Below are positions 253 to 11,245 of a DNA stretch of 64,000 nt, one piece after another. The position numbers were made by a program, and so were the translations under genes. Origin of the DNA: a bacterium HR11 (GTDB lineage: Bacteria; Acidobacteriota; HRBIN11); contig BEHN01000016.1 in the NCBI GenBank assembly GCA_002898535.1, forward strand, positions 1 to 64,000, in the 5' to 3' direction. Each line of letters starts with the position of its first letter. Position 1 is the first letter of the stretch. The notes beneath the pieces were generated by a model. It did not search any database. It was not told where the DNA came from and saw nothing but the letters and a program-made list of their open reading frames with translations.

Positions 253-313
253 GTCTAACGGCACCGAGCTTAGCCGCGCCGCCGTAGGCGGCGGCTGGAG
301 CGCGTTGTTAGGC
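253..313 (-). other. integron attC recombination site
   Basis: On the minus strand the site starts with GCCTAAC (RYYYAAC core, 313-307) and ends with GTTAGAC (GTTRRRY core, 259-253), 61 bases in all. Between the cores is a near-perfect inverted repeat around AGCCGCCGCC and GGCGGCGCGGCT, giving the folded structure expected of attC. It begins 7 bases after the hydrolase stop codon and precedes the VOC gene, exactly as between two cassettes. I see no integrase gene in the window. Confidence 0.85.
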
Positions 314-1148: not shown

Positions 1149-1413
1149 GGGATCCTCCTTACACCCTGGGAGTTTTGAGACGAGTTCAAGGGGGGATTTC
1201 CCGGTAAGGTCCGGGCATGGGGGCGACGCGGTGAATCGTCTCTAAACGCCCCCTTCTTCGGCCCAAGCTTAGGCCGCCCCCGCCGACGGACTATCCCATG
1301 AACGTGGGATGGTTCGCTTCGACACCCATCAAAATCGGGAGTCCGGGGGCCGGGTCCCCAAGAGTCTGAAAGGGCGGCTCCCGGCCCTTCCCCGGACCGG
1401 AGACCCGCTCCTG

Positions 1414-6467: not shown

Positions 6468-8732
6468 TCAACGTCGCCGGCGGTCGTTGGCCTTCCGTTG
6501 GGCGTCCATGACGACGAGGGCCGTCATGCGGACGATGTCCTCGACCGTGGCCGACCGGGGGAGCGCATGGGCCGCCCGTCGGGGACCCAGCAAGACGGGT
6601 CCCAGGACGGCCGCCTCGCTGAGCTTCTGGATCAGCTTGTACCCGATGTTGGCCGCATTGAGGTCGGGAAAGATGAGGACGTTGGCCCGGCCTTTCAGGC
6701 GGCTGAAGGGGTAGAACTCTTCCATAATGTGGGGGTCCAAGGCCACGTCGGCCTGCATCTCCCCGTCGGCCATCACGTCGGGTGCGACCTGGCGGAAGAG
6801 CTCGACGGCCCGGGCGACCTTCTCGACCTCGGGCCTTCGCACGGCCCCGAAGTTAGAGAACGACAGGAAAGCGACCCGCGGCTCGATACCCAATTCCCGG
6901 ACGAACTGCACCGTCAGCCAAGCGATTTGGGCCAACTGCTCAGCCGTCGGGTCGATATTCACCGACGTGTCGGCCATGAAGTAGATGCTCCCCCGGAGGT
7001 CGACGATGTGGAGGCCGGTCGCCGGGACATCCGGGTCGGTCCGGATGATCTGCAGGATCGGCCGGATGGCGTCGTCGAACTCAGACGTCAGGCCCGTCAA
7101 CATCCCGTCGGCGTCGCCCATGAGGACCATCATGGCCCCGAACACGTTCGGATGGGCCACGGCGTGATAGGCATGGTAGTAGACCATGCCCTTCCGTTGG
7201 CGGAGTTCAAAGAGCCGCTGGGCGTAGGCCTCCCGACGGGGGTCCGTCACGGGGTCGACGATGACGGGCCGGAACGAGGCGGCTCCGATCCGGTTCAGGA
7301 CGGGCTCGATGAGCTCTCGACGACCCAGCAAGATAGGCTCGGCCAGACCCTCATAGTGGGCCTGGAAGGCGGCCCGGATGATGCGTTCGTCCTCGCCCTC
7401 GGGGTAGACGATACGCTTGGGCTCCCGGCGGGCCGACTGCATGATGATGTAAGCGGCGTGGCCGCCGAACTCGACCTGCTCCCGCAGGGATTCCGTGTAA
7501 CGGTCGATGTCGATGACCCGCCGAGCGACGCCGGACTCGATGGCGGCCTTCGCCACGGCGGGCGCTTCCCAGTAAAGCACGCGGGGGTCCAGGGGCTTGG
7601 GGATGAGGTACTCGGGGCCGAACTCCAGACGGGTGACACCGTAGGCTCGCATGACGTAGTCGGGGACGGGTTCTCGGGCCAGGGCGGCCAGGGCATACGT
7701 GGCGGCCAGTTTCATCTCCTCGGTGATCTTGCGGGCCCGTACGTCGAGGGCACCCCGGAAGATGAAGGGGAAGCCGAGGACGTTGTTGACCTGATTGGGG
7801 TAGTCCGAACGCCCAGTCGCCACGATGGCGTCCGGCCGGGCAGCTTTGGCCTCCTCGTAAGGGATCTCGGGGATGGGATTGGCGAGGGCAAAGATGATGG
7901 GCCGGGCGGCCATGCGGCGGATCATGTCGCCGGTGACGACGTGGCCGACCGAAAGGCCCAGGAACATGTCGGCGCCCTCCAGGGCCTCGGCCAGGGTCCG
8001 GACGCGGGTCTCGACGGCGAACTCCCGTTTGTACGGGTTCAGGTCCGTACGGTCGACGTGGAGGACGCCCTTGCTGTCGAACATGAGGATGTTCGACTTG
8101 CGCACGCCCAGACGGACGTAGTAGCGAGCGCAAGCGATGGCCGAGGCGCCGGCGCCGTTGATGACGACCCGGACGTCCTCGATGCGCTTGCCGACCAGCT
8201 CCAGCGCATTTAACAAGGCCGCCCCCGAGATGATGGCCGTGCCGTGCTGATCGTCGTGGAAAACGGGAATGTCCAGCCGCTCGGCCAAGCGCTCCTCGAT
8301 GTAGAAACACTCCGGCGCCTTGATGTCTTCGAGGTTGATGCCCCCAAAGGTGGCGGCGATTCGGTCCACGATCGTGATGAACTCGTCGGGGTCGTGGGTA
8401 TCGACCTCGATGTCGATGGCGTCGACGTAAGCAAACCGCTTGAACAGGACGCACTTGCCCTCCATGACGGGTTTGCCGGCCAGGGCCCCGATGTCGCCGA
8501 GGCCGAGGACGGCCGTGCCGTTCGTGATGACGGCGACGAGGTTGCCTTTAATCGTATAGTCATACGCCGCCGCCGGGTCCTGCTGGATGACCAAACAGGG
8601 CTCGGCCACGCCGGGCGTGTAGGCCAGCGAGAGGTCCCGCTGGGTCGCACACGGCTTGGTCACCCGGACCTCCAGCTTCCCGGGGCGGGGCTCCCGATGA
8701 TACCGTAAGGCTTCATCGCGAGTAGTGGTCAT
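6468..8732 (-). CDS. maeB: NADP-dependent malic enzyme, MaeB type (malic enzyme fused to phosphotransacetylase-like domain)
   Basis: Oxidative decarboxylation of malate to pyruvate and CO2, a cytoplasmic link from the TCA cycle to pyruvate and NADPH. The 754-residue length is typical of MaeB. Residues 1 to about 420 hold the malic enzyme domain: [33 protein letters not shown], the metal site region [13 protein letters not shown] and HDDQHGTA, and the nucleotide-binding [15 protein letters not shown]. Residues of about 430-754 are a phosphate acetyl/butyryltransferase-like domain ([12 protein letters not shown], and [11 protein letters not shown]), which is usually regulatory in this family. 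The start at 8732 is set by AAGGAGG eight bases upstream; the longer frame is less likely. The CoA transferase gene lies just upstream on the same strand. Confidence 0.93.
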
Positions 8733-10109: not shown

Positions 10110-11245
10110 CCTTCCAGCTCCAAGAGTCGTTCCAGTCGGTCGGTCGGCACGTTCGGCGGCGGCTCGACGGGTCCCACGAAGACGCCCTGGTACACGTAGA
10201 CACCCCGGCGCAGGTCGAAGGACGCCCGTAGAGCCTCCTCCAACGGTCTCTGGACCAGTTCCCGAAGATACGGTAGGAGCGCCGTCGTCAGGGCGTAGCT
10301 CGCCGTCCGGGGGACATAGGCCGGCACGTTGGGGACGCAGAAGTGGATCACGCCATGGACCTGATAGACGTGCTCGAAGCCCGGCGTCAGCCGGGACGTC
10401 TCGACGGCCCCGCCCTGGTCGATAGAAAAATCGAGGATCACAGCCCCCGGCTTCATCCGACGGACCATGGCCTCGGTCACGATGACAGGCGCCCGGGCCC
10501 CCGGCTCGAGGACGGCCGTGATGAGAATATCGGCAAAGGGAATCATCTTCGCGAGGTAATGCTGGGAGATGAGGACCGTCACGACCCCGCCATGACTCAG
10601 TTGATACAGCCGCTCGAGCTTCTGGAAGTCCTTGTCCATCACGTACACGTTGGCCCCGACCCGATGAAACAGCAGGGCCGCCGTCGACCCCAGATTCCCG
10701 GCCCCGATGATGACGACTTCCGCCGGGGGAATCCCCGGCAGGCCCGGGATGAGAATCCCCCGGCCCCCCGGGACTCCGGCCTCCAGAAGGCGGGCCGCAA
10801 TTTGATAGGCCATGAGGCCGGCGATGCGGCTCATGGGCTTCAAGACTGGAAGGTCCCCCTCGGGCGTCTGGATGACCTCGTAGCCGATGGCCGTGACCCG
10901 CCGGGCGGCCAGCACTTCTAAGAAATCCGTCGGCGCCACGGCCAGGTGGAGAAAGGCCAGCAGGGCCTGCCCCTCTCGAAACAGGTCGTACTCGCCCGCT
11001 TGCGGACGGGCGACCCGCACGACGAGGTCCGACCGCTGATAGACCTCTGTCCGGTCATATACGACGTGGGCCCCCGCCTGCCGATACTCGTCGTCGCTGA
11101 AGCCGGCCATCCGACCGGCCCCCGACTCGACGAGGACGGTCGCCCCCAGGGCCGTCAGCTCCCGGACGCCCGCCGGCGTCAGGACGACCCGCCGCTCGGT
11201 CATCCGGCCCTCATCGAACTCCCGCGGCACGCCGACCGAGACCAT
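10106..11245 (-). CDS. ald: alanine dehydrogenase
   Basis: NAD-dependent interconversion of L-alanine with pyruvate and ammonia in the cytoplasm. The 379-residue length fits the family. The N-terminus has VGVPREFDEGRMTERRVVLTP followed by GATVLVESGAG. The substrate-site lysine and histidine regions are present (LAFLHLA, and PVLKPMSRIAG). The Rossmann motif is VVIIGAGNLGSTAALLF, and the C-terminal part contains FCVPNVPAYVPRTAS. It is first in an operon with the CoA transferase (4-base overlap) and then malic enzyme, all of which feed or drain pyruvate. The start at 11245 gives the conserved N-terminus. Confidence 0.93.
   Translation of the reverse strand: MVSVGVPREFDEGRMTERRVVLTPAGVRELTALGATVLVESGAGRMAGFSDDEYRQAGAHVVYDRTEVYQRSDLVVRVARPQAGEYDLFREGQALLAFLHLAVAPTDFLEVLAARRVTAIGYEVIQTPEGDLPVLKPMSRIAGLMAYQIAARLLEAGVPGGRGILIPGLPGIPPAEVVIIGAGNLGSTAALLFHRVGANVYVMDKDFQKLERLYQLSHGGVVTVLISQHYLAKMIPFADILITAVLEPGARAPVIVTEAMVRRMKPGAVILDFSIDQGGAVETSRLTPGFEHVYQVHGVIHFCVPNVPAYVPRTASYALTTALLPYLRELVQRPLEEALRASFDLRRGVYVYQGVFVGPVEPPPNVPTDRLERLLELEG

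Follow-up and report, generated by a model that had tools for sequence, protein, structure and literature searches.

Integron cassettes move as circles, and their attC sites are recombined by the integrase IntI as a folded single (bottom) strand, between the G and the TT of the R' core; intI and attI are expected upstream of the first cassette. Where attC sites cluster with no integron integrase, the clusters have been termed CALINs (Cury et al. as cited in PMC8618304 and PMC9024848), for which we applied the criterion of at least two attC sites less than 4 kb apart with no integrase nearby, and excision or capture of their cassettes by exogenous integrases is still possible (PMC9668308). Integrons are already on record for numerous phyla, Acidobacteriota and Chloroflexota among them, and cassettes have a wider distribution than intI (PMC8618304). 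As to thermophiles and hot springs, the only paper found that touches the point concerns archaeal integrons.

The locus described here lies at the start of the window, which covers the initial 64 kb of contig C16 from a genome of 2.99 Mb (49 contigs, 95% complete). Among 84,980 species genomes scanned, its first cassette gene, encoding an α/β hydrolase, has only two close relatives. One belongs to Candidatus Thermoflexus japonica HRbin22, a MAG of the Chloroflexota obtained from a bioreactor at 70 °C with an enrichment from a Japanese gold mine (PMC8129789), whose array (L008/L036, BEHY01000019.1) shares with the window genome an identical attC site, a hydrolase of 97% amino acid identity and the order hydrolase, VOC, cupin and 170-aa gene. 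From the leader of the hydrolase cassette to that of the VOC cassette the two sequences agree at 97.7% over 965 bp. The HRbin22 array differs in that its VOC gene is gutted, no RibD-like cassette stands ahead of the cupin gene, at least three more attC sites lie beyond, and the host DNA upstream is another. After VOC it continues with a second attC, the cupin gene, the 170-aa gene (no Pfam match) and a truncated NADP-binding gene, and further on with a methyltransferase, a small gene pair that is toxin-antitoxin-like in look and more attC sites. HRbin22 further retains an intI pseudogene, on its contig C4. At the end of that contig (L058:2310-2520, 3085-5140) the gutted intI, an N-terminal piece (PF13495, 27.8 bits) joined to a short C-terminal motif, is accompanied by a SnoaL-like cassette and a number of attC sites, a decayed integron. 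The same SnoaL-like cassette directly precedes the hydrolase in the second relative, the MAG of Nevskia sp. HOG36 (L009/L038, JADGHB010000046.1), which shares the hydrolase cassette with the window (92% identity in amino acids, 93% in DNA). In contrast to the window, the Nevskia integron is complete (IntI 475 bits), has other cassettes before the hydrolase, and follows it with a different, 93-bp attC. No close relative of the hydrolase was found in viral contigs or, at the DNA level, in 395 other genomes of the phylum, and all matches in plasmids were below 60% identity.

In the window, the hydrolase (275 aa; PF00561, 85.5 bits) is encoded on the minus strand at 321–1148. Judged by dN/dS ratios of 0.23 and 0.33 for the hydrolase and 0.11 for the cupin, both genes look as if kept by selection in these lineages. 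The second cassette begins, also on the minus strand, at 252 (1–252), with a leader from 252 to 182 that is common to the window and HRbin22 and a VOC/PF06983 gene from the ATG at 181; the HRbin22 VOC gene is without its first part. The window gene carries a +1 frameshift near 104 and is cut by the contig end, and it may be either a pseudogene or the product of an assembly error at that end. Contig C16 starts at base 1 of the window, so the left part of the array falls beyond the contig. No promoter-like site was detected on the gene strand between 1 and 2200, the sole promoter-like site lying on the opposite strand, inside the gene; an IS-end promoter driving the hydrolase was rejected for this reason.

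Between these two genes, at 253–313 on the minus strand, lies the attC of the hydrolase cassette, which reads GCCTAACAACGCGCTCCAGCCGCCGCCTACGGCGGCGCGGCTAAGCTCGGTGCCGTTAGAC in gene orientation, occurs once in its genome, and is identical at 61 of 61 positions to L008:5836-5896 in HRbin22. The plus strand reads GTCTAAC at 253–259 and GTTAGGC at 307–313, which confirms the coordinates; in gene orientation this gives R'' as GCCTAAC (313–307) and R' as GTTAGAC (259–253), which fit RYYYAAC and GTTRRRY, respectively, and are complementary at 6 of 7 positions. The inner arms L'' and L' are AGCCG and CGGCT, with a one-base extrahelical position. R'' follows the hydrolase stop (321–323) after 7 bp and in the same orientation, and the site ends 71 bp upstream of the start codon of the VOC-type gene. 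Crossover would be expected between G259 and T258. A covariance model was built from seven other sites, three from the Nevskia integron with its IntI and four from the Thermoflexus array, with the window attC excluded and the 93-bp attC left out because it misaligned. Against this model the window site scores 39.6 bits on the minus strand versus 14.9 on the plus strand (E = 7.8e-6 over the 2.99-Mb genome, E-values being rough owing to a short calibration; 150 of 1682 candidates in the genome were scored). The same model reaches at best 24.8 bits in one same-genus genome and finds nothing in another. When all eight sites are aligned, 86% of the cells are paired, as opposed to 24–42% with the partners slid, a percentage biased upward since the structure was drawn from the same eight sequences; less affected by this are the seven pairs that changed on both sides.

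Could the site be a terminator or some other inverted repeat that resembles an attC by chance? Folding energy alone is ordinary for GC-rich DNA, and indeed the comparison with shuffled sequences was unexceptional (z of -0.54 and -1.30) and is uninformative for such a site, while an Rfam search gave sub-threshold chance matches only. Yet the model score, the covariation and the place right after a gene stop all run contrary to a chance repeat, and the identical site within the longer HRbin22 array in effect already refutes it, leaving this explanation a negligible probability. By its sequence, the site at 253–313 is thus a genuine attC, and its recombination by an integron integrase is predicted. 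The preliminary description had placed an attC between two cassette-like genes, and its cores, inverted repeat and position after the hydrolase stop and before VOC are all borne out. It had also proposed a covariance search and named a lack of both a score and further attC sites as what would speak against it; instead, a score was obtained, and more sites were found on contigs C34 (34.4 bits) and C40 (26.7 bits).

Since genes and attC lie on the minus strand, the array runs leftward, and attI and intI are expected at its right, hydrolase edge. The hydrolase side, which borders the response regulator, is hence the integrase-proximal end, or head, of the array, and not its tail as first proposed. 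The same description had seen no integrase to the right, which holds: no intI lies beside the array, and instead of attI and a cassette promoter, an IS remnant and host DNA were found upstream of the hydrolase (for attI no fixed sequence model was used). Genome-wide, no IntI exceeds the TIGR02249 cut-off of 265 bits, the best match reaching 69.3 bits; such sub-cut-off hits turn up in controls without integrons as well. Could the locus nevertheless be part of a complete integron, with intI and attI falling in an assembly gap or in the 5% of the genome that is missing? Contigs of draft genomes often end at arrays (PMC9024848), IntI is frequent in the phylum, and there is a gap in the array between C34 and C16; indeed, a fragmented assembly of 95% completeness could lack intI, which we counted against our preferred reading. 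However, both far ends of the array, upstream of the hydrolase and on C34, consist of an IS remnant and host genes, although intI would be expected upstream of the first cassette, and IntI over the cut-off is absent from two same-genus and two same-class genomes. We thus consider a hidden complete integron quite unlikely. Across the phylum, 60 of 199 sampled genomes have IntI over the cut-off, several of them more than one copy of it; among the sampled genomes of the window's class there is none.

Upstream of the hydrolase, a three-way comparison with HRbin22 and Nevskia delimits the cassette leader, AAGGAGGATCC (1149–1161, minus strand). Identity to both relatives ends just above it, inside the Nevskia cassette boundary, and the window leader is without the TTAGGC boundary present in Nevskia. 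The similarity among the three cassettes ends at one point (window 1149–1161, L008:4989-5000, L009:4984-5000), and an IS end stands at this break in the window copy alone. There, at 1162–1187 (minus strand), lies the left-end remnant of an IS4/5-like insertion sequence. It is 94% identical to several copies at contig ends of a same-genus genome, in which the matching IS end precedes MEFRELSDEQWTFIEPLLP, apparently the beginning of an IS4/5-family transposase. The family assignment rests on this N-terminal motif beside the same IS end in the relative, and the PF13340 query for it was a tandem duplicate of a 19-residue N-terminus, so that its score is inflated. No PF13340 transposase matched in the window's genome or in two same-genus relatives, the IS body of the relative being unassembled, nor does this genome hold an intact transposase between terminal inverted repeats, only end remnants.

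This edge bears on the possibility that an integrase supplied in trans inserted the cassettes singly at a non-attI site. CALINs have been proposed to arise by such off-target insertion (PMC8618304), and a lone third attC-like site on C40 would be in line with it. Integrase insertion would have left a TTRRRY start, which the hydrolase cassette does not have; its edge is an IS end instead, and this junction already speaks against off-target insertion there. Moreover, single insertions would not give the order hydrolase, VOC, cupin that is kept with HRbin22. We therefore regard such insertion as highly improbable, and the earlier suggestion of a cassette inserted outside an integron probably does not hold, given an IS-end remnant at the right edge and the same order in a longer array elsewhere.

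The array appears to continue on contig C34, whose end carries a cupin cassette 94.4% identical to HRbin22 over 841 bp. Upstream of the cupin gene, in gene orientation, lie a diverged attC of the form GCCGAAC...GTCAGGC, which has degenerate cores, and a gene end encoding 34 C-terminal residues that resemble RibD/dihydrofolate-reductase-like proteins by eye (no Pfam match); downstream stands the start of the 170-aa gene, truncated by the other end of the same IS (92% identical to five copies in the same-genus relative). Beyond the IS ends of the inferred array, a host segment comprising the 3' end of the response-regulator gene and downstream DNA (1188–1460) is repeated at C34:13795-14066, the two copies being 97.8% identical over 273 bp and in direct orientation. 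At the C34 junction of host segment and IS remnant there is 8–9 bp of microhomology, CCTGGCGAC. DUF1326, a neighbour gene on C34, is absent from both same-genus genomes. Order and orientation fit a join from the end of C34 to the start of C16 (hydrolase, VOC, gap, RibD-like, cupin, truncated gene), and from these and the flanking repeats we infer that the two contigs probably flank one array across an assembly gap.

Altogether, the window start is very probably a piece of a cassette array without integrase, of CALIN type, that was relocated or trimmed by IS-linked rearrangement. This reading is based on the attC model and covariation, the HRbin22 array, the hydrolase of the Nevskia integron, the attC and cupin on C34, the lack of an IntI over the cut-off, the IS remnants at both edges and the 273-bp direct repeat outside them. 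As in other CALINs, attC sites and cassettes share one orientation with no integrase nearby; unlike them, C16 holds one attC and C34 a second that would belong to the same array, and IS remnants and a direct repeat bracket the whole. That the window has one attC only, that an assembly gap separates C34 from C16, that the C34 attC has degenerate cores, and that the IS junctions (1161/1187 and C34:14052) come from the assembly alone, was counted against this reading. In particular, metagenome assemblies break or misjoin at repeats such as IS ends and the nearest relative is also a MAG, so that array DNA of another organism might have been joined to the contig in assembly or binning. Against this stand two host-gene contigs with matching array ends, IS remnants and the same host segment, and copies that differ from HRbin22 by 2–6% and by one cassette and are hence not one sequence used twice. 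Indeed, the different cassette before the cupin gene and the uneven synonymous divergence from HRbin22 (0.058 and 0.165 among cassettes) indicate arrays that are related rather than one sequence assembled twice. An artefact is thus very unlikely.

For the CALIN-type fragment we propose the following course. Each cassette would once have moved as a circle, through an integrase that recombined the folded bottom strand of its attC. Rearrangement at IS4/5-family copies, whose end remnants are seen at both outer edges, probably either carried the fragment to its site beside a two-component system or trimmed it there. A circle of array fragment and host segment that integrated by homologous recombination would give the direct-repeat layout, and other IS-linked rearrangements could also yield it. 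With no recognisable integrase, the cassettes would now be fixed in cis, and renewed movement would be expected only with an integrase in trans or after the DNA reached an integron-bearing cell.

In kind, the fragment is ordinary; its sharing across lineages and the IS remnants at its edges lend it slightly more interest than the average CALIN has. The cassette array is common to two unrelated lineages, of which one is a Chloroflexota of bioreactor origin (70 °C), and is partly shared with the Nevskia integron. The three genomes represent three stages of the same system, namely a complete integron in Nevskia, an integrase pseudogene in Thermoflexus and no integrase in the window genome, which lends support to the idea that cassettes spread more widely than integrases do. 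More speculatively, and in our estimate rather doubtfully, integrase-less cassette blocks might pass from one thermophilic bacterium to an unrelated one as units bounded by IS ends. If so, whole array segments and not single cassettes would spread without an integron, and the shared order, identical attC, IS ends and 273-bp repeat would be a snapshot of the process.

Further attC-like sites were observed elsewhere. The one on C40 (L059:6216-6286, minus strand; 26.7 bits, E 0.013) is solitary, follows a 380-aa gene, and adjoins a genome-specific repeat. In G006, a same-class genome with no IntI over the cut-off, attC-like sites lie on three separate contigs (L060-L062), at C238:20227-20287, C149:21264-21320 and C396:161-222, with 44.4, 35.5 and 34.4 bits. 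A repeat family of ~100 bp, 75–93% alike and present in both orientations, recurs at many places in the window's genome, on contigs L059 (e.g. 1650-1779 and 7333-7442) and L037 (e.g. 2206-2325 and 10614-10722).
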